Source: a virus. From it: DNA of 36,664 nt. Below, piece by piece: positions 23,603-36,664 of this stretch; position 1 is the first letter of the stretch; each line of letters opens with the position of its first letter. A program made the position numbers and the translations under genes. A model generated the notes under the pieces. That model was not told the DNA's origin. It searched no databases and saw only the letters and a program-made list of their open reading frames with translations. The stretch lies in the IMG/VR virus record IMGVR_UViG_3300034167_000571, positions 1-36,664 of that record; one strand, given 5' to 3'.

Positions 23603-24901
23603 TTAGATTGTTATTCTTGTTGTATAAGTTTTTTGAATATCGAAGTACATTCTCATCATAATACTATCCCACTCATCGGGCGAACGTCCAATGTTTTCTT
23701 TTACTTTATCCTTTGAAACGATACCCAACCGCCCGTCTTTATCAATGTCTTTGATTTTGACTTGTTCCATTTCTTCTGCCGTTATTTCACGAACGGTATC
23801 GTCTGCCACAATCTCCCCAACCTCTTTGCGTACTATTTTTGTAGCCATTTTTATAGAGCATTGTGATTTCAAATTGTCGTAGTTCTCTCCCAATAACGCA
23901 CTTGAATTATTGACAAATCCTTTGCATCGTAAGTAATCTACAACCCCGCCCCCGACACCGTCCTCATCGGCTATTGTATTCGACATAGTAATTGAATGTT
24001 TCAATGCTATTTCCTTTCCTTTTTGTACAACCTCATTGACAAGGCTCTTATTCATTACGTAGCGATGAGTGCATAACCAACCATGCCAAACCCTAAATAC
24101 CGTTTTGTCTTTTCCTTTACGGGCGACGTCAATTGTCAGATACTTATATCCCTCGGGTTTGATGTGAACAGGATTAAAATAGTCCCGAATACTGTCTTGG
24201 TCTATAAGTGTGGCAGGGTCGTCGTCGTATTCCCAATTGCCGTAGTACAATCTTTCGCGAGAATTCTTATCCAAACGTAACAATGATTGAAGATAACTCG
24301 GATGCAAAAACGGGTTGTCGGTAGGCAATGCTTGAATGAAACGTCTGAACGTTTTTAGATCGTTGGATTTTGCGGGTTGATAGAACTCTTTATAAGTCCA
24401 ATTCTTTGCGGGATTGCACGTTCCGAGCATCTTTGGTATTAAGTTGTATTCTCTTAATTTGTATCGGATACGGGATTTCACTATTTGCCACGCCTTATAG
24501 GTCAACTGATTACACTCATCAATGAACGCCCCCGTTATTTCGAGAGAACCCAAACTGTCAAAATTAGGGTCTGACGGATAATAGAATAAATCCTTTAAAA
24601 TTATTTCGGAGCCGTTTTTAAAATAGAACGTGTTATTGCCCCCGTTATATCTGTATTGATTAGTCAACTTTAATTCCCCCGCAATTTCAAAGAATGTCTT
24701 TAATGTGGTTGCTTTCAACGTGTGAAGTTTTGAACGTCCCATAAGCCAACGAGTATTCGGATACTTATTTGCTTGTTCCAAAACCCACATGCAACCAAAC
24801 GCACTTTTTCCTCCACCCGCAGCACCCCCGTACAGAACTTCTTCTGTAACATCGTCTTTCAAATAAAATGTGGCATGTTCTTGTTTACGGAGTAACTTCA
24901 T
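23603..24901 (-). CDS. terL: Terminase large subunit
   Basis: From the start at 24901 (MKLLRKQEHATFYL) the protein has 432 residues; an earlier in-frame ATG at 25000 would add 33 residues lying inside the TerS gene. Walker A is at 25-33 (GGAAGGGKS) and Walker B at 124-129 (GAFIDE). The nuclease domain has Asp258 in LTIDVARKGKDKT, Asp312/Asp314 in ADEDGVGG and Asp412 in DEWDSIMM. The enzyme cuts concatemeric DNA and pumps it into proheads. It overlaps terS by 17 bases. Confidence 0.95.
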   Translation of the reverse strand: MKLLRKQEHATFYLKDDVTEEVLYGGAAGGGKSAFGCMWVLEQANKYPNTRWLMGRSKLHTLKATTLKTFFEIAGELKLTNQYRYNGGNNTFYFKNGSEIILKDLFYYPSDPNFDSLGSLEITGAFIDECNQLTYKAWQIVKSRIRYKLREYNLIPKMLGTCNPAKNWTYKEFYQPAKSNDLKTFRRFIQALPTDNPFLHPSYLQSLLRLDKNSRERLYYGNWEYDDDPATLIDQDSIRDYFNPVHIKPEGYKYLTIDVARKGKDKTVFRVWHGWLCTHRYVMNKSLVNEVVQKGKEIALKHSITMSNTIADEDGVGGGVVDYLRCKGFVNNSSALLGENYDNLKSQCSIKMATKIVRKEVGEIVADDTVREITAEEMEQVKIKDIDKDGRLGIVSKDKVKENIGRSPDEWDSIMMRMYFDIQKTYTTRITI

Positions 24902-25289
24902 CGGTTTCGGTTTCGGGATTGATGCCACTACCCAAATTAAGGATAATGTTTTGAATAGGCTCTCCGCCCGACGTAACGTCCCCAACAAAACGACTTCCAT
25001 TCAATCGATGTGCTTCGTCGTCTGTTGCTATCATTTTCATTAAAGCAATTTGCAAAGACGGGTTGTCTGATTTGTACCATTTCGCTCTCATTGATACTTT
25101 TATTGACGTTTTGTTTTTTTCTAATGCGTCTTTTATAGTGTTCAATTCGTCTGAATTTAATGGAAAGAAATCATAAAAAGTTGCTTTTGCACAAGGCAAA
25201 TATGAAACCACGTCCTCAACAAAGAATAATTTGTTTTCTTCAATTGTATCTAATGCCTGTTTGTATATTTTTTCCTTATCGTATGCCAT
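24885..25289 (-). CDS. terS: Terminase small subunit
   Basis: The 134-residue protein lies just upstream of terL (17-base overlap) and has the small-subunit layout: an N-terminal DNA-binding helical part (ATFYDFFP), a middle with MRAKWYKSDNPSLQIALMKM (68-87), typical of Bacteroidota phage TerS proteins, and an acidic tail that probably contacts TerL. It would recognise the packaging site. It starts 4 bases after the IbrB-like gene. Confidence 0.8.
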   Translation of the reverse strand: MAYDKEKIYKQALDTIEENKLFFVEDVVSYLPCAKATFYDFFPLNSDELNTIKDALEKNKTSIKVSMRAKWYKSDNPSLQIALMKMIATDDEAHRLNGSRFVGDVTSGGEPIQNIILNLGSGINPETETDEVTP

Positions 25290-25293
25290 GATT

Positions 25294-25980
25294 TTATTCT
25301 TTTGATGCTTTTTGTTCGTCTTGATATTGTTTTCTTAATTTCAATTGGTTGGTTTCTTCCCAAGAACGTTTGTATTCCGTATCGCTGAATAGTTTGCTAA
25401 ACCCTGTAATATGTTTTAGCTTCAAAACTTCTTCGGGTTGCATCCCCAATTCGTTGCATATTTCTTCATCTTTCCAACCGTTCTGCAACATTTCAAAAAC
25501 CATTGAAGACATCCCTGTAATCGAGTGCTTTCCTCTTGCTCGATTGTGGCGTACCGTTGAAGCCATTCTATCGTTTATATCCTTTTCGATTACTACAATC
25601 GGTAGGTATCCATGATTGCGTTCTCGAATGTCTTGGTTTGTCAAACACGTAAAGTATCTGTGAAAACCGTCCACGATTACATACTTGTCATTTTCCTCGT
25701 CGTAAATCGTTACGATAGGTTGAGTATACCCATCATGCTTTATTGAAGTGTATAACAACCCCATTTCGATTTTGGCTACCGAATTAGGATTGTAGTCATT
25801 CGGGCAGACCTTTTCAATTGGTATCCAACGTACCCTATTAACGGGTTGAGATTTCAAAGGACTTTCGTTGTCGATTTGTTGTTTTATCTTTTCAATTGCT
25901 TCGATGTATTCGGCATCTGTTTCACTACTAATTCTGCAAGATATTAGTATTGCTTTAATCGTTTCCTCTATTTGTATCAT
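25294..25980 (-). CDS. IbrB-like ParB-domain protein (third ParB-like protein of the cassette)
   Basis: The 228-residue protein has a ParB/sulfiredoxin-type domain at about 48-155: NDYNPN (61-66), VIVDGFHRYF (101-110), HNRARGKHS (145-153). A helix-turn-helix-like part follows (163-190, DEEICNELGMQPEEVLKL) and a charged tail. It overlaps the IbrA-like gene by 26 bases. IbrA/IbrB pairs are known from an E. coli prophage, where they activate surface-protein genes; the biochemistry of the pair is not established. Its two-part motif is shared with the ParB-like protein at 28837-29253. Confidence 0.85.
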   Translation of the reverse strand: MIQIEETIKAILISCRISSETDAEYIEAIEKIKQQIDNESPLKSQPVNRVRWIPIEKVCPNDYNPNSVAKIEMGLLYTSIKHDGYTQPIVTIYDEENDKYVIVDGFHRYFTCLTNQDIRERNHGYLPIVVIEKDINDRMASTVRHNRARGKHSITGMSSMVFEMLQNGWKDEEICNELGMQPEEVLKLKHITGFSKLFSDTEYKRSWEETNQLKLRKQYQDEQKASKE

Positions 25981-27166
25981 TGATTTTATTTTGAAGTTGT
26001 TGTCTCATTTCGTTGGTAACATATTTTGATTTTGACATCATGTAGTCCTTAACGTTTCCTTTTTTAAATTCTCTGTAAATGTAGGCATCTTTATTGCCTT
26101 CCGTCCAATTCTTTAATTTAGTCAAATCCCAATCAGTGCTTAATACTGTTTTGATTATTACCTTGAAAAAATCCTCTTTGATTTCGGCATCAGTATAAAC
26201 CAATGTCAACTGCTCGATTTTCTTCAATATCATTTTCTTGTACTTATCCTCTTGAATGATATTCTCTATTAAATGCAAAGCGTATTCTTCCCAATCTTTA
26301 AACATAAACGGAAGTTCCTTTGGGCATTGAAAACTCTCCCGTTGAAGATGCTTTAATGTATTCACGCCGTCGTAACGTGAAGCAATCTTTTCCCACGTTT
26401 TCGGCTCAATCTCTTGAACAATCAGCATAGATTGTATTGCGGTTTCATGGTGCAAATTACTTATTCTCATTTCATTCAATGAAACTCCATGTCTATACAT
26501 TTCATTGTAAACGTTATTGTACTCCCAATTATGCTCATGGATTGACTTCCAAACGTCTGTGTAACTCCAATCGTAAATAGGGTAAAAAGTGTAATGTTCG
26601 TATTGAACATAAAGACGCTTACCCCATGTAATGTCTTTGTACGTTAAGTCTCTTGTCATTGCCAATTTTCGACGAGGACTTTCTTCTGCCCGTACACCCG
26701 CAATGTAGCACGTCTTTTCATTTGGATAATGATGCTTCAAAATGTTCTCGAACAATTCGTGAAACCCGAACTCTAAATACTTATTCTCTTTGATTGACAT
26801 AGGAGATTTTTCTCGTATCCATTGTTCCGGCTTATCTTCATCCCAAATTTTTATAAAGCTATCGTATGAAGAAACGTTGTTATACCATTTCATTGGCATC
26901 TGAAACCACAAAGGCTCTATATCGGGATTGTTGAATACTTCTTCGCAGTAATCAGCGGTGCCTTGCCATTCAGCTTCTTGGTCAATCCACATTACTTTTA
27001 AAGGTAATCGGTTACGTTCCCTCGCAACTTTAAGCGTTAAATTCAAACATACCGTACTATCCTTACCGCCCGAAAATCCGACTACAACATTCGGGAACTC
27101 GTCGAATAAATAGTTTATTCTTGTCAATGCTTCTTCTAATACATTCGTCTTTTTAAATATTTTCAT
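25955..27166 (-). CDS. IbrA-like PP-loop protein (PAPS reductase-type, DUF3440)
   Basis: From the start at 27166 (MKIFKKTNVL) the protein has 403 residues; ten more residues from an earlier ATG are less likely. The PP-loop SGGKDST is at 32-38, WIDQEAEW follows (60-67), and GVRAEES (157-163) completes an adenylating/PAPS-reductase-type fold. The C-terminal 170 residues match DUF3440, found in IbrA. PP-loop enzymes activate a substrate with ATP; relatives include DndC of DNA phosphorothioation. It overlaps the GNAT gene by 14 bases and the IbrB-like gene by 26. Substrate and role in this phage are unknown. Confidence 0.85.
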   Translation of the reverse strand: MKIFKKTNVLEEALTRINYLFDEFPNVVVGFSGGKDSTVCLNLTLKVARERNRLPLKVMWIDQEAEWQGTADYCEEVFNNPDIEPLWFQMPMKWYNNVSSYDSFIKIWDEDKPEQWIREKSPMSIKENKYLEFGFHELFENILKHHYPNEKTCYIAGVRAEESPRRKLAMTRDLTYKDITWGKRLYVQYEHYTFYPIYDWSYTDVWKSIHEHNWEYNNVYNEMYRHGVSLNEMRISNLHHETAIQSMLIVQEIEPKTWEKIASRYDGVNTLKHLQRESFQCPKELPFMFKDWEEYALHLIENIIQEDKYKKMILKKIEQLTLVYTDAEIKEDFFKVIIKTVLSTDWDLTKLKNWTEGNKDAYIYREFKKGNVKDYMMSKSKYVTNEMRQQLQNKINDTNRGND

Positions 27167-27551
27167 CTTGTTTTTTTTCGTAATAAACCATTGCACCGCC
27201 GTCTTTACACTTACGGATAATTTTTGCCCCTTGTGATAAATGTAAATTCAAACTTGTAGGCATACAACTTGAAGTTATTTTTTTGTCGGTTGTCATTCGA
27301 CAATAAGCAAGACGATGTTTCAATAACATAAGTCCGTACCCTTTTTTTCTGTGTTCGGGTTTTGTATATGAAAAAGTCAATAGCACATTCCTTTTCATTT
27401 CTTCAACCGTTGCAACCGAAACGATTTCTCCATTGACAAATAAGCCAAACATGACGCCCAAAGCATTGTAGTAAATTTTACAACGCAAAGCATCGTTTAC
27501 TATTTCCTGTTCATCATTCGGGTTTATTTGATGTATCTCTATTAATTTCAT
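27153..27551 (-). CDS. GNAT-fold N-acyltransferase
   Basis: With the start at 27551 (MKLIEIHQINPND) the protein has 132 residues. The acyl-CoA binding motif A is at 62-78 (YTKPEHRKKGYGLMLL, with Arg68-x-x-Gly71-x-Gly73). The end (LHLSQGAKIIRK, GGAMVYYEKK) is the usual last strand pair. It lies between a glycosyltransferase-like gene (38-base overlap) and the IbrA-like gene. It may acylate a small molecule, protein, sugar or base; Mom of phage Mu is a GNAT relative that modifies DNA, so a DNA target can be considered but is not shown. Confidence 0.8.
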   Translation of the reverse strand: MKLIEIHQINPNDEQEIVNDALRCKIYYNALGVMFGLFVNGEIVSVATVEEMKRNVLLTFSYTKPEHRKKGYGLMLLKHRLAYCRMTTDKKITSSCMPTSLNLHLSQGAKIIRKCKDGGAMVYYEKKQDENI

Positions 27552-28128
27552 TTTCGATATACTTTTTGTCAAACGTATTGCTTTGTCGGGTTTCGGATGC
27601 GGAATGACTTAATGTGCTTTTTATGTCTATTCTGTGTTGAACTAAATTAGGCAAATGAACAAACGCTTTTTGTTTTGTATCTCTCAAAAATTCCCTTATA
27701 AGAATGTCATCATGTTTTTTTTCTAAATGCTGGTCCGAGTATTCTAATAATTGCTTTGATATTTCGCGAGTAAATATTACGGCTTGCATCATTAAGAAAT
27801 TTGGATATTCCGATATGGTTATTCCTTTGCTAAATTGCTCGTCAAGAAATTTTCTTTTCAAAGAGAATAGACTTAAAACGTGTATGCCTTTTTCTTTCAT
27901 CATGCTTTCCAATACAGGTAAGTATTCTAAAAATCCATTCGGTATAACCACATCGTCTTGTAACCTTAAAGTATATTCTGTTTCGTTGTGAAGCGACAAA
28001 CTATCAATGAATGTTTTGTAATTGCCTTGCAATGTCTCATCCCAATATACAACCGCATTAGGCAATTTCTTTTTAATTATCTCAACATTTGAATTTCTTG
28101 AACGTACTGCTTGAATAATTACTTTCAT
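27514..28128 (-). CDS. Glycosyltransferase-like protein 2 (204 aa)
   Basis: The 204-residue protein has a GT-A-like layout: a strand with VIIQAVRSR (3-11), then LRLQDDVVIP (54-63), a DxD-like metal/nucleotide site, and later HDDILIREFL (139-148) and LPNLVQHRIDIKS (159-171). The same two landmarks (acidic DDV-x-x-P and P-x-L-x-QH) occur in the protein at 29250-30002. Such enzymes transfer a sugar from a nucleotide donor. It overlaps the FkbM methyltransferase gene by 4 bases. Confidence 0.7.
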   Translation of the reverse strand: MKVIIQAVRSRNSNVEIIKKKLPNAVVYWDETLQGNYKTFIDSLSLHNETEYTLRLQDDVVIPNGFLEYLPVLESMMKEKGIHVLSLFSLKRKFLDEQFSKGITISEYPNFLMMQAVIFTREISKQLLEYSDQHLEKKHDDILIREFLRDTKQKAFVHLPNLVQHRIDIKSTLSHSASETRQSNTFDKKYIENEINRDTSNKPE

Positions 28129-28826
28129 TTTCTTGAATAATGTACCATGAATGTATCGCTCATTGCTTTTGCTATTTCAATGTCGTTACCGAAAATATCA
28201 TAGCATTTTTGAATTAGAACAGACTTTTTTTCTTTCCAACAATGAACTTCAATGACTGCTGTTTTTGCGTTAAGTAAAAATCTTCTTCCCGCTTCTGAAT
28301 TTAAAAAAGCCATTTCGCCACCCTCACAATCTAATTTCACAAAGTAGTCTTTTACGTTTGGCAACCGTTCGATAAATTCCTCTATGCTTAATAGCAATGC
28401 TTTTTCATCCGATAATCGGTTTGTGTCTTTATGACTAAAACCTATGCACCAATCCCCTGTAAAACTATCCGTCCTTTTAAATACGTCGTACATTGCGGTC
28501 TTTTCCCCAACGCCGTATTTTTCTGCTTTGACTGACGGACAGTAATTTTTAATATTTTCCTGTAAATATCCAAACGTTTGAGGGGTTGGCTCAAACGCTA
28601 TGATAGGCGTGTTAGGAAAAATACTATTAGCATAAATACTAAATATCCCAATGTTTGCCCCTATATCAAAAATAGCGTCGTATTCATTGAATTGATTTGA
28701 TTTCATTCTATAACAATCGCTTTTAACTACTTCTGTTGTAATGTAATTAGCGTACCTTTTATTTGGCTTTATATTGCCAAAAACCCTTGTTTTAAATTCC
28801 TCTTGCGTTTCAATTAACTTTTTCAT
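28125..28826 (-). CDS. FkbM-family SAM-dependent methyltransferase
   Basis: The 233-residue protein has the SAM-binding motif I IFDIGANIGIF (52-62), motif II AFEPTPQTF (77-85) and VKLDCEGGE (163-171), all diagnostic for the FkbM family. These enzymes methylate hydroxyl groups, often on sugars or polyketides. It is flanked by glycosyltransferase-like genes, so methylation of a transferred sugar is a reasonable guess. It overlaps the downstream gene by 4 bases. Confidence 0.9.
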   Translation of the reverse strand: MKKLIETQEEFKTRVFGNIKPNKRYANYITTEVVKSDCYRMKSNQFNEYDAIFDIGANIGIFSIYANSIFPNTPIIAFEPTPQTFGYLQENIKNYCPSVKAEKYGVGEKTAMYDVFKRTDSFTGDWCIGFSHKDTNRLSDEKALLLSIEEFIERLPNVKDYFVKLDCEGGEMAFLNSEAGRRFLLNAKTAVIEVHCWKEKKSVLIQKCYDIFGNDIEIAKAMSDTFMVHYSRK

Positions 28827-28836
28827 TGATATTGGT

Positions 28837-29253
28837 TTAATGGTCTCTTAATAATTCTTTTTCCAAATTCACGCCTTTTTTTGAAAGGTAACTATTTATT
28901 TCTTCCATTGCTTGAACGGAATGTTTGCCACGAGCTTCATTGTGCATTATTGTAGCAAGACGCTTTTGTTCTTCTGTTAAGTCAATCAAACATATCGGCA
29001 CGAGTTCTAATTCCAATACGCATGATGCTCTCCAACGATGCTCCCCGTCAATGATCTCCATTGTGTTCTTATCAACTACAATCGGTTGAGTAAATCCAAA
29101 TATCGCTATGCTTTTACAAAGTAAATCAAATGTCTTTGTTTCGTGAGAATTCGGGTTGTACGAGTTCGGCATCAAATCCAACGGACTAATATAAGTTATC
29201 CTTAATTTCTTATCGTTAATGTCCTTTATTCCGTAGGCGTTTTTTCTTATCAT
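28837..29253 (-). CDS. ParB-like nuclease-domain protein (second of the cassette, 138 aa)
   Basis: The 138-residue protein is the ParB/sulfiredoxin-type domain alone: NSYNPNSH (30-37), EIIDGEHRWRA (66-76) and HNEARGKHS (104-112). The last motif is nearly the same as HNRARGKHS in the IbrB-like protein at 25294-25980, so the two belong to one subgroup. ParB-fold domains bind or use nucleotides such as CTP. No HTH follows. It overlaps the glycosyltransferase-like gene by 4 bases. Confidence 0.85.
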   Translation of the reverse strand: MIRKNAYGIKDINDKKLRITYISPLDLMPNSYNPNSHETKTFDLLCKSIAIFGFTQPIVVDKNTMEIIDGEHRWRASCVLELELVPICLIDLTEEQKRLATIMHNEARGKHSVQAMEEINSYLSKKGVNLEKELLRDH

Positions 29254-30002
29254 AATCTCATTCCGTTAAGTTTATTCCACTTGTCTAATTTGTCGTTTGG
29301 TTTCCAACCGTCAAATCCAATTAGTCCTTTTGGCGTTTTGTCTTTAAAAGGCGTTTCAAATTCCTTTTTCCAATCTACTGAATAGACATCAAAATTAGGG
29401 TCGTAACAAAACGATTGACGTACGTTTTCGCCTATTTTTCCTGCGTATCCCGCACTACTTCTCCACGTTCCTAAATGCTGAAACAAACTTGGCAATATTG
29501 TGAAAGCTTCTTTTTGATTTACTTCCATGTATTTTTTTGTTCTGCTATCTCCGCCTATGTTTTCGGGAGGCCAAATATCGTCTATCGTTTCAATAAAATG
29601 ATTTCGGCTTGTTTTCGGGATGCAAACACATTGCGACCAATAGTTGTATCTTGATTTGTTTACTTTTTTACCGCTATTAAAAGCTTCTTTCATTGCTTTA
29701 TTTGTCGGGACGTAAAAGAAAATCCAAGCGTCTTTTGGTGCAAAATCTAAAATGTAGTCCATTCGTTGTAACACGTCAACAGGAAAACTTACGTCATCTT
29801 CCAAAGCAATTAACCAATTGCCCTCGTCCTCTACGTTTATAGCGTTTTTGAAATTATGCCACATTCCTTTTCTATCGGCATCCAAAGAGATAGATACTTC
29901 AACGTTTTCACATTTGCGTTCTAATAGTTTTTTAAGGACTTTTCCCTCCATTTCTCTATCCCCCGCATTTACAATTCTAATTTTGCTAAAGTTATTTATC
30001 AT
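29250..30002 (-). CDS. Glycosyltransferase-like protein 1 (250 aa)
   Basis: The 250-residue protein has a GT-A-like fold pattern: IRIVNAGDRE (8-17), SLDADRKG (39-46), LIALEDDVSFP (64-74) as the acidic donor site, and LPSLFQHLGTW (170-180). It shares the DDV-x-x-P and QH landmarks with the shorter protein at 27514-28128, which suggests an old duplication. The sugar donor and acceptor are unknown. It shares one base with the upstream unknown gene. Confidence 0.7.
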   Translation of the reverse strand: MINNFSKIRIVNAGDREMEGKVLKKLLERKCENVEVSISLDADRKGMWHNFKNAINVEDEGNWLIALEDDVSFPVDVLQRMDYILDFAPKDAWIFFYVPTNKAMKEAFNSGKKVNKSRYNYWSQCVCIPKTSRNHFIETIDDIWPPENIGGDSRTKKYMEVNQKEAFTILPSLFQHLGTWRSSAGYAGKIGENVRQSFCYDPNFDVYSVDWKKEFETPFKDKTPKGLIGFDGWKPNDKLDKWNKLNGMRL

Positions 30003-30310
30003 TACAGATTATAGTTATGGTCTTTGATTAACGCCCTGTTTATTAGTTTACATTGATTTGGATTGTCGGATGCTTTATCCATAGTCCAATAATGGTACTC
30101 GTCGATTTCTAAATACATGATTGTCATTGAATAGAATTTTTTTGGCGTTCCGTAAACAACAATGGCTTTTGCCAAATACTCAAACCATTCCTTATTGGTA
30201 TTTCTTGCTTTTACATTATAACTATGCGGTTTGTCCCGCATGGTTTTTGCTTCCGACCATGTGAAATCTCCAACGATTTCTTTTAGTTTTAAATACGTAT
30301 CGAAGTCCAT
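30002..30310 (-). CDS. Unknown conserved-looking protein of the ParB cassette (102 aa)
   Basis: The 102-residue protein has an HSYN motif (29-32), an EWFEYLAKAIVVYG helix and a C-terminal YLEIDEYHYWTM with a following LINRALI. A similar HEY...YWTM...INRA pattern seems familiar from phage proteins near DNA-modification genes, but I cannot assign a function. It shares one base with each neighbour, the first ParB-like gene and the first glycosyltransferase-like gene. Confidence 0.75.
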   Translation of the reverse strand: MDFDTYLKLKEIVGDFTWSEAKTMRDKPHSYNVKARNTNKEWFEYLAKAIVVYGTPKKFYSMTIMYLEIDEYHYWTMDKASDNPNQCKLINRALIKDHNYNL

Positions 30311-30855
30311 TATTTTTGCTCTATTTCAAATTCCTCTAAACAATGCGGACAAACAACCGTTCTTAAATTCTGTTCGTTGTTAGAGTACTTTTCGTTTAAC
30401 TTACTATTTGTGTTGTCAATTTGTTGGGAAGTAACTTGTCCGTATTCGGTATTTGGCGTTACGTTTGGCTCAAATTGTGTAGGCGTAATATTCCAATTCT
30501 CAACGCCCCACTCATCCAATTGCAACGTTCCCCACTTTACTTTTAATTCGGCATAGTCCCAATCTCCACTGCTCGAATTATCCTTAATCATGAACTCCTT
30601 TTCTTGTGCGGGAGTAAAATCAGCAATCAATACAGGAACTTCTTTGATACCCGCTTCCAAACAAGCGTTGTATCTCATATTGCCCCCAATGATTACCATG
30701 TCTTTATTTACAACGATAGGACGTGCTTCCAACATTTCGGGAAAGTCCTTTACGGATTGAACGAGTTTCAAAAACTTCTCATGTCGAATTATTCTTGGAT
30801 TGTCCTCGTTTTCAATTAATTTGCTAATGTCAATTTTTTGTGCTTTTGAACTCAT
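30310..30855 (-). CDS. ParB-like nuclease-domain protein with C-terminal zinc-knuckle half-site (first of the cassette)
   Basis: The 181-residue protein has a ParB-type domain: NEDNPR (16-21), VIIGGNMRYNA (54-64) and KDNSSSGDWD (91-100). This last motif is typical of a ParB subgroup that often precedes DNA methyltransferase genes in phages. The C-terminus has VVCPHCLEEFEIE with one CxxC pair only; a second pair for a full zinc site is missing, so metal binding would need a dimer. It is the first gene behind the promoter at 30875. Confidence 0.85.
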   Translation of the reverse strand: MSSKAQKIDISKLIENEDNPRIIRHEKFLKLVQSVKDFPEMLEARPIVVNKDMVIIGGNMRYNACLEAGIKEVPVLIADFTPAQEKEFMIKDNSSSGDWDYAELKVKWGTLQLDEWGVENWNITPTQFEPNVTPNTEYGQVTSQQIDNTNSKLNEKYSNNEQNLRTVVCPHCLEEFEIEQK

Positions 30856-30910: not shown

Positions 30911-30944
30911 GAAACCATTTTGTCGCTATCAACAAAATGGTTTC
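30911..30944 (-). terminator. Hairpin closing the early region before the ParB cassette
   Basis: A perfect 13-bp stem (GAAACCATTTTGT at 30911-30923, its complement at 30932-30944) with an 8-base loop lies 6 bases after the stop of the small basic gene. On the minus strand it is followed by CTTGTTAT rather than a U-run, so it may be a weak terminator, a processing site or an RNA-stability element. Confidence 0.65.
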
Positions 30945-35715: not shown

Positions 35716-36600
35716 TTAAAATGGAACGTTATCTTCTTGTTGCTTGTTTAATGGTTGGGTATAATCTTTTACTCGAATTTCGTCTGTAACAATGTACGGC
35801 AACCAATCTTCATCTATACTAAATTTAAAGTCATCAAACGGAATGTTTCTCGTGTATTCGGGAACGGCTAAAACATTCTCATCGTCTTTATCAATGAAAA
35901 CAACTGTTTCGGCTTTTTTCAAAACCGCACTTCCCAAATGTCCTGTCGGCTTGTTGGATGCGAAATTTCTATGCAAAACTGTAATGATGTGGCTATTTGA
36001 TTTCTCCGACCATTCTAATAACTTTTGTGCTACTGCATACGATTGTTCTTCGTCGTTTACATGCGTTACTAAATCGGCTACCCCGTCAATCGATGCCAAA
36101 CCTATTTTGCCTTTAAATTCACTTTCCAAAAATATGTATTCAATGAATTGCAACCGTTCCTTAACCGTCAATCCTCTCAACGAAAATGGCTTGTAATTGT
36201 CGGGATTTGTGCCAACGATTTCTGCAACCCGTCTAAACACTTTTTGACAATGATACTTCGATTGCTCGGTATCTATTTCAATGACGTATTTGTCTTTAAC
36301 ATCATGTCCTTTAATTGTGGGAGCGTATCTATTTGCGTTCCCGCCTAAATACGACGCAATCAATAACGACTTCAAAAATGTTTTCTTTGATTTTGACGCC
36401 CCAACGATGCAACTAAAATCTCCATAACTTCCATATTGGGTTGGGTACTTATTTCCTTTATACGGATGCGTTCCTATACTCAACGCAATCGGCGGTTGCT
36501 TTAATTCTTCTTCTATATTGATAAATGTGCTATCAAACATTTTTCGGAAATCCATTCCTAACGGCTCGGCATCCAATTTAAACTGTGGTATCTCTATCAT
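35716..36600 (-). CDS. RepA-like replicative helicase (RecA-fold ATPase)
   Basis: The 294-residue protein has a RecA-type ATPase core: Walker A GASKSKKT (67-74), with Lys where the last Gly normally stands; a strand with EIDTEQ (108-113); Walker B IGLASID (166-172); and HIITVLHRN followed by GHLGSAVLKKAETVVFI, the sensor region seen in RepA/Rep-type helicases of plasmids and phages. The changed Walker A is also typical of Bacteroidota members as far as I know. The C-terminus ends in an acidic tip (DNVPF) like SSB. It would unwind DNA at replication. Its start is duplicated at the window's left end. Confidence 0.8.
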   Translation of the reverse strand: MIEIPQFKLDAEPLGMDFRKMFDSTFINIEEELKQPPIALSIGTHPYKGNKYPTQYGSYGDFSCIVGASKSKKTFLKSLLIASYLGGNANRYAPTIKGHDVKDKYVIEIDTEQSKYHCQKVFRRVAEIVGTNPDNYKPFSLRGLTVKERLQFIEYIFLESEFKGKIGLASIDGVADLVTHVNDEEQSYAVAQKLLEWSEKSNSHIITVLHRNFASNKPTGHLGSAVLKKAETVVFIDKDDENVLAVPEYTRNIPFDDFKFSIDEDWLPYIVTDEIRVKDYTQPLNKQQEDNVPF

Positions 36601-36664
36601 GGTAAATTCTTATAATGGTTTATTGCTTCTGTTATTTGATTATTCAATCCTTTTTCGACTTGTT
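36435..36664. repeat. Terminal direct repeat / circle-closing overlap, right copy
   Basis: This is the right copy of the 230-base repeat described at 1-230, covering the helicase 5' end and the last 20-odd codons of the upstream unknown gene. It differs at 36545 and 36574. Base 36434 therefore precedes base 1 in the circle. Confidence 0.9.
36597..36664 (-). CDS. 3' end of the 167-residue unknown gene (same gene as 163-666)
   Basis: This stretch repeats 163-230 exactly and encodes the C-terminal residues of the unknown gene upstream of the helicase. It runs off the window end only because of the terminal overlap. It is not a second copy in the genome. Confidence 0.85.
   Translation of the reverse strand, partial: QVEKGLNNQITEAINHYKNLP

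Follow-up and report, generated by a model that had tools for sequence, protein, structure and literature searches.

Several described systems resemble, in part, the nine-gene cassette at positions 25294 to 30855 of the virus record IMGVR_UViG_3300034167_000571 from IMG/VR (36,664 nucleotides; 'the window' denotes this whole stretch, which is the DNA that was analysed). The IbrA/IbrB pair, known from an Escherichia coli prophage and from bacterial islands, comprises the same two protein families as two of the cassette genes, likewise adjacent and likewise found in both phages and chromosomes. However, the only role described for the E. coli pair is regulation of prophage (eib) genes, whereas the phages considered here add a small domain designated u102, a ParB-like protein (ParB1) and variable transferases. 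IbrA/IbrB have also been noted in Flavobacterium phages FCL-2 and 6H, though only as possible virulence factors (PMC4541368). In the CmoA/CmoX/CmoY system of Synechococcus phage S-B43, the asparagine-synthetase homologue CmoY ligates glycine to 5-carboxymethylcytosine in phage DNA, and ParBc genes occur in many CmoY-type contigs (PMC12783734). The parallels are an AMP-forming ligase that decorates a handle on a DNA base, ParBc genes that are often nearby and the reuse of RNA-modification chemistry on DNA; in contrast, the cassette has a PP-loop enzyme of the IbrA/PAPS-reductase type, its decorations would be sugars, acyl and methyl groups, and neither a carboxy-S-adenosylmethionine (Cx-SAM) synthase nor a C5-cytosine carboxymethyltransferase was found among its nine proteins (the rest of the genome was scanned in part).

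Three further systems offer narrower parallels. In the Dpd 7-deazaguanine system, the ParB-like ATPase DpdB assists the insertion of a base into DNA (PMC12839542), and a ParB-superfamily ATPase works with a base-modifying enzyme; in the cassette the partner is instead a PP-loop protein, and no TGT-family DpdA or DpdC is present among the cassette proteins. The Dnd phosphorothioation system likewise combines a PAPS-reductase-family PP-loop enzyme (DndC) with a ParB-superfamily gene (DndB), but here there is no conserved cysteine, no DndA, DndD or DndE is encoded in the cassette, and acyl-, glycosyl- and methyltransferases are added. Glycosylation in phages T4 and RB69 and the Mom modification of Mu decorate phage DNA with sugars or an acyl-type group against restriction; however, no hydroxymethyl-pyrimidine synthesis genes were found among the genes checked here, and the cassette GNAT matches only generic acetyltransferase families and the phrog_1249 type. 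Serratia phage eta was considered as a precedent and rejected, as it has no modified bases. No description of the cassette was found in the literature searched, which consisted largely of openly accessible, peer-reviewed papers, so that absence is not proof; this agrees with an earlier commentary made from the letters alone (the sequence-only reading), which knew of no system with this combination.

We interpret the locus as a modular hypermodification cassette, in which a recurrent core (IbrA and IbrB, usually with ParB1 and u102) is combined with swappable transferases and would mark nucleic acid, probably phage DNA; we place the probability of this reading at about 0.6. All nine open reading frames are present on the minus strand, with intergenic gaps of -38 to +10 bases, bearing out the claim of overlapping or nearly touching genes up to terS (the ATG of the PP-loop gene at 27166 gives a 14-base overlap with the GNAT gene). 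They run in the order ParB1, u102, GT250, ParB2, FkbM, GT204, GNAT, PP-loop and IbrB, followed by terS and terL. Family searches confirmed three ParB-like proteins, an IbrA-like PP-loop enzyme, a GNAT and an FkbM methyltransferase, as had been called previously:

30310-30855, minus strand: ParB1, ParB/sulfiredoxin superfamily, first cassette gene (ParB_N E=4e-7; phrog_620 E=6e-27).
30002-30310, minus strand: u102, small alpha+beta domain (AlphaFold predicted local distance difference test, pLDDT, 91).
29250-30002, minus strand: GT250, GT-A-type glycosyltransferase, slot gene (clusters with the GT204 family; weak match to the glucosyltransferase phrog_854).
28837-29253, minus strand: ParB2, short ParB-like protein, slot gene (ParB_N E=2e-11, above cut-off).
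28125-28826, minus strand: FkbM-family methyltransferase, slot gene (TIGR01444 E=4e-19, 69.5 bits against a cut-off of 37.7; Methyltransf_21).
27514-28128, minus strand: GT204, predicted GT-A-fold glycosyltransferase, slot gene (AlphaFold pLDDT 93).
27153-27551, minus strand: GNAT acyltransferase, slot gene (Acetyltransf_1, 23.9 bits against a cut-off of 20.7).
25955-27166, minus strand: PP-loop ATP-pyrophosphatase of the IbrA/DUF3440 type (PAPS_reduct E=4e-17; phrog_2302 E=1e-85).
25294-25980, minus strand: IbrB, ParB-superfamily partner of the PP-loop enzyme (phrog_2159 E=3e-74).

The cassette recurs across viruses. Relatives were collected with a single-protein scan using the PP-loop sequence, which yielded 24 viral contigs, and a scan with a ten-sequence alignment, which yielded a further set; after removal of near-duplicates, the matches listed comprised at least 81 non-redundant viral loci, and 49 of these 81 had enough flanking sequence for presence counts. 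Ordered maps show a repeated plan of ParB1, u102, variable genes, PP-loop, IbrB, terS and terL, with the cassette often beside the terminase genes. Since the neighbouring TerL proteins are diverse (72% of pairs share less than 30% identity), the cassette is carried by unrelated phages, and the linkage that a neighbourhood survey had been proposed to seek extends well past close relatives. Among the 49 loci, ParB1 is present in 37 and u102 in 35, while at least one decorating enzyme occurs in 40, in 17 different combinations. Within 5 kb of the PP-loop gene, u102 was found in 47/81 loci, a glycosyltransferase in 28/81 and a GNAT in 22/81. As a control, 80 contigs with a relative of the phage's own TerL were collected, one of which was the closest cassette-bearing relative (L002), and 47 of the others had at least 3 kb upstream of terL; in these 47, no PP-loop gene, u102 or glycosyltransferase was found in that region, and a GNAT was found once. 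Co-occurrence is thus beyond chance (Fisher p of 3e-13 for u102, 4e-7 for glycosyltransferases and 2e-4 for GNATs), with p-values that are optimistic because the family profiles were built from PP-loop loci, which biases near-versus-far counts upward.

Comparison with L002, whose PP-loop protein is 87% and TerL 86% identical, delimits the variable part of the cassette:

27167-30007, minus strand: variable slot, exchanged for unrelated DNA in L002.

In a blastn alignment of the window with L002, identity is 71% on the u102 side as far as position 30008, where u102 ends, and 74% on the PP-loop side, beginning at its start codon (27166); the intervening DNA does not align. Provided that L002 is correctly assembled, the whole slot has been exchanged in one piece, with sharp borders, while both flanks stayed in place. 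In the window it spans 2.8 kb and holds GT250, ParB2, FkbM, GT204 and GNAT, whereas the 1.5 kb slot of L002 holds another glycosyltransferase, a DPPW methyltransferase and another GNAT. Across the loci, the swappable genes, most of which lie between u102 and the PP-loop gene, include GT-A enzymes of the GT204/GT250 family, a second glycosyltransferase-like family, GNATs, class-I methyltransferases, DPPW methyltransferases (Pfam N6_N4_Mtase) and relatives of S-adenosylmethionine (AdoMet) decarboxylase (Pfam E=4e-21). In one slot (L042), a TylF methyltransferase (E=8e-10) is the counterpart of FkbM, and in another locus (L067) a ParB2-like gene again adjoins a GT250-like gene. FkbM, ParB2 and GT250 count as optional slot genes rather than core components.

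The PP-loop protein has the IbrA architecture, with a PAPS_reduct domain followed by DUF3440 (26.7 bits against a cut-off of 25). Its SGGKDST loop is invariant in an alignment of 76 PP-loop sequences, in which many tryptophan, arginine, glutamate and aspartate positions are more than 95% conserved and no cysteine column exceeds 47%. PAPS reductase and DndC require cysteines. Identity as a CysH PAPS reductase was rejected, as there is no conserved cysteine and the score against TIGR00434 is 22 bits, far under the cut-off of 165. The best profile matches of the family to solved proteins are FAD synthase and CysD, which are adenylyl transferases; TilS and asparagine synthetase similarly adenylate an oxygen before a nucleophile is attached. 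Given these matches and the lack of a conserved cysteine, adenylation of an oxygen with attachment of a nucleophile seems the likeliest reaction, ahead of sulfur chemistry.

IbrB scores slightly under the Pfam ParB_N cut-off and carries the motifs DGFHR and RHNRARG, and ParB2 carries DGEHR and HNEARGKHS; we take these DG-x-HR and HN-x-ARG motifs to resemble the nucleotide-binding motifs of the ParB/sulfiredoxin superfamily. IbrB adjoins the PP-loop gene here and is present in all 49 loci with enough flank. Around 50 bacterial contigs, ranging from Enterobacteriaceae to Flavobacteriia, also carry IbrB beside the PP-loop gene, with few or none of the decorating genes. The IbrA/IbrB pair is the minimal unit. 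The sequence-only reading had grouped the genes correctly, though it neither set this pair apart as the core nor named u102, and it counted the optional genes as part of the set.

Other arrangements of the PP-loop gene were also observed. In L008 (2854-4788), a glycosyltransferase-like sequence (GTA, LDDDMLL) and the PP-loop protein form one 644-residue reading frame, which could be either a real fusion or a sequencing error, as the two are separate genes in L004. In five loci of the Flavobacterium-phage type (L027, L028, L091, L095 and L096), the IbrB-like and PP-loop genes follow immediately after a helicase-like gene of about 400 residues, and no recognised decorating enzyme lies nearby. 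In L094, L097, L098, L099 and L101, a family of about 250 residues with no Pfam match (cluster 31) stands directly before the PP-loop gene and is perhaps another partner of it. In L102, L103 and L105, a gene for a cupin-like protein (about 267 residues) lies ahead of the PP-loop gene; in seven other loci, a family of about 173 residues (cluster 21), whose cupin signal is marginal at best, lies there. PP-loop relatives at a greater distance are found in phages of Streptococcus, Lactobacillus, Mycobacterium, Arthrobacter and Bacillus (H68-H100).

u102 has no match in Pfam, phrog or other family searches, and is recognisable by a conserved AK..PH...YW..NR motif; a search with its predicted fold returned one viral protein besides weak PDB matches. 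Eight loci encode in-frame fusions of u102 with a class-I methyltransferase. One of these is from the cultured Microbacterium phage Rasputia, which also has the PP-loop gene and, in the same operon, an acetyltransferase and three genes annotated as glycosyltransferases. L071 and L076 have u102 fused behind an AdoMet decarboxylase domain recognised by Pfam, and in L067 a GNAT-like segment, which Pfam does not confirm, seems to precede u102. Decorating enzymes are present in 34/35 loci with u102 compared with 6/14 without it (p=5e-5). A reciprocal search from u102 alone, using a six-sequence alignment itself taken from PP-loop loci, recovered a PP-loop gene in 29 of the 30 loci with room for one. 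From its distribution, u102 is regarded as a core gene and the marker of the decorated form of the cassette. Because of this association and of the bacterial IbrA/IbrB pairs with few other genes, we read the cassette as a two-layer design in which IbrA/IbrB would make a basic product and u102 would mark its elaboration.

ParB1, the other usual companion of the pair, matches Pfam ParB_N above its cut-off and is related to the ParB part of the DNA methyltransferases phrog_498 and PADLOC MTase_II. At its C-terminus lies CPHCLEEFEI, a CPxC..EF element that is conserved among relatives and looks like half a zinc ribbon.

Two slot proteins, GT204 and GT250, have no significant Pfam match and only weak sequence matches. 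A model of GT204 (204 aa), built with 30 relatives, matched known structures with Foldseek E-values down to 2e-7 and with a VIA-align Z of 16.1 to COLGALT1/GLT25D1 and mimivirus R655; the acidic motif positions of the GT-A fold are conserved (D30, D58-D59 and D141, with H165). The predicted fold clearly points to a GT-A glycosyltransferase (GT25-like). GT250 (250 aa) shares the D, DD, D and H positions and belongs to the same family, in keeping with the suggestion that the two DDV-x-x-P proteins are glycosyltransferase-like. Neither GT204 nor GT250, used singly to scan viral contigs, recovered any relative, and GT204 and an invented u102 consensus had no match in the annotated phage collection; cultured close relatives of GT204, GT250 and u102 are therefore rare.

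That these genes act as one unit, as previously suggested, is supported by their contiguous, overlapping arrangement, their recurrence beside TerL proteins less than 30% identical, the u102 fusions and the slot exchange. A nucleic-acid target is indicated by the relationship of the PP-loop enzyme to DndC and BrxP, that of ParB1 to DNA methyltransferases, the N6_N4 methyltransferases in the slot and the position before terS. On the basis of ParB partners, DNA-modifying relatives and position, we infer DNA as the probable target; RNA could also serve, and protein or glycan is less likely. Evasion of host defence would be the effect. In the mechanism we propose, the PP-loop domain of IbrA would adenylate an oxygen, either on a base or on a small molecule destined for attachment, while IbrB would provide access to DNA or position it, and together they would install a reactive handle post-replicatively. 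ParB1 and u102 would then bring the decorating enzymes to this handle. In this phage the GNAT would acylate it, GT204 and GT250 would add one or two sugars, and FkbM would probably O-methylate a sugar; other phages would apply other decorations, including through an AdoMet-decarboxylase relative that may supply an amine or aminopropyl donor. Phage AdoMet-decarboxylase relatives can decarboxylate ornithine or arginine in place of SAM (PMC10407285), and by analogy those in the cassettes suggest an amine donor. DNA marked in this way at packaging would resist host nucleases, and exchange of the slot would keep the phage ahead of mark-specific defences. Of the sequence-only reading's complex modification, the notion of one system with enzymes for glycosylation, methylation and acyl transfer is retained, whereas its analogies with sulfur chemistry and with Mom gained no support.

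An unlikely alternative is that the cassette modifies RNA, either tRNA or phage mRNA, and so protects tRNAs or transcripts. PP-loop chemistry is commonest in tRNA modification (TilS, ThiI and TiaS), and PP-loop enzymes, GNATs and class-I methyltransferases, the latter two of which occur in the slot, are typical of RNA modification. DNA modification is favoured over this by the ParB-superfamily partners, the DNA-methyltransferase relatives, the terminase linkage and the presence of DndC and BrxP as relatives of the PP-loop family.

It is distinctly unlikely that what the slot enzymes glycosylate and methylate is instead the host cell surface or a virion protein, with IbrA/IbrB merely regulating or adjoining them, even though the predicted GT-A fold is closest to protein and glycan glycosyltransferases (COLGALT1 and POMGNT1) and the usual substrates of FkbM and TylF methyltransferases are sugars or other small molecules. 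The u102 fusions and reciprocal linkage tie the slot enzymes to the PP-loop/IbrB core, and many cassettes contain a DNA-type N4/N6 methyltransferase or a GNAT yet lack a glycosyltransferase.

We consider it very unlikely that IbrA/IbrB form a transcriptional co-activator or a defence or counter-defence pair, with the remaining genes being morons at a hot spot upstream of terS. The E. coli proteins are named coactivators of prophage gene expression, and the cassette-free region upstream of terL in the TerL relatives points to an optional insertion; however, enzymes of these classes are found with the core again and again but scarcely ever upstream of terL in the 47 relatives lacking it, and the domain fusions and the association of u102 with decoration also argue against this reading. 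It is most improbable that a DndC-type enzyme makes a phosphorothioate-like or other sulfur modification; this was considered first on account of weak matches to DndC and BrxP models and was dropped, with its DndC analogy, after the cysteine test, as the 76 sequences lack a conserved cysteine, the DndC equivalog TIGR03183 scores 35.1 bits against a cut-off of 290.4, and no cysteine desulfurase, DndD or DndE is encoded among the cassette genes.

Several observations besides the profile bias count against DNA hypermodification. Surface-glycan pathways, too, often contain glycosyltransferases, FkbM proteins and GNATs; the genes checked yielded none for nucleotide sugars or for a handle precursor; and E. 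coli IbrA/IbrB are described as activators of prophage gene expression rather than DNA modifiers. The predicted fold of u102 has no solid PDB relative to tell its role (best Z 4.3), although it may still be a known one. Finally, co-evolution of the module, whose lack the sequence-only reading had listed as part of a refuting outcome, was not demonstrated, because PP-loop distances correlate with those of TerL (rho 0.51) about as well as with those of ParB1 (rho 0.62; Mantel tests), and the tests cannot tell joint evolution of the module from the shared descent of the phages.

A broader proposal, which we advance tentatively and at somewhat less than even odds, is that IbrA/IbrB modify DNA bases as a pair that is widespread among bacteria and phages but has so far gone unrecognised, creating a new handle via adenylation. 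Phages would elaborate this handle into a combinatorial code, drawing on sugar, acyl, methyl and possibly amine groups; u102 would be a domain dedicated to recognising the handle, and regulation in E. coli would be a side effect of modified DNA. If the hypermodification reading is right, it would give a biochemical role to IbrA/IbrB and DUF3440, so far annotated only as regulators or 'PAPS reductase', and would predict that phages contain many modified bases not yet seen, forming a large family whose decorations are interchangeable. It would also bear on the resistance of some phages to restriction and CRISPR nucleases, offer possible new enzymes for DNA labelling, and make the slot a case of phage chemistry diversifying through cassette exchange. 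Carriers of the cassette include cultured phages, namely Microbacterium phages, and the bare core is found in Flavobacterium phages such as FCL-2 and 1H, which have the PP-loop gene and an IbrB-like ParB gene but none of the recognised decorating enzymes.

The cassette is bordered by the following features:

30911-30944, no strand assigned: hairpin formed by a perfect inverted repeat of 15 bp, lying between the cassette and the genes upstream.
24885-25289, minus strand: terS, next gene after IbrB.
23603-24904: terL, after terS.

The hairpin is a probable transcript boundary separating the cassette from the upstream genes. A -7 element resembling those of Bacteroidota, TATATTTG, lies before ParB1 but has no -33 counterpart, and a sigma-70 promoter scan gave counts equal to the shuffled expectation (chance level). 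The dedicated promoter claimed for the cassette is therefore weakly supported, by the hairpin and the -7 element. Base composition gives no sign of foreign origin, the GC content being 0.355 in the cassette and 0.354 in the window. The record is classed as lacking end repeats; its ends (1-230 and 36435-36664 of the window) form a 230-base direct repeat, 99.1% identical, which indicates that it is probably a complete, circularly mapping genome, and L002 joins both record ends. TerL is 68% identical to that of Cellulophaga phage phi10:1 and 58% to that of Flavobacterium phage 11b, relatives that suggest a Bacteroidota (flavobacterial) host.

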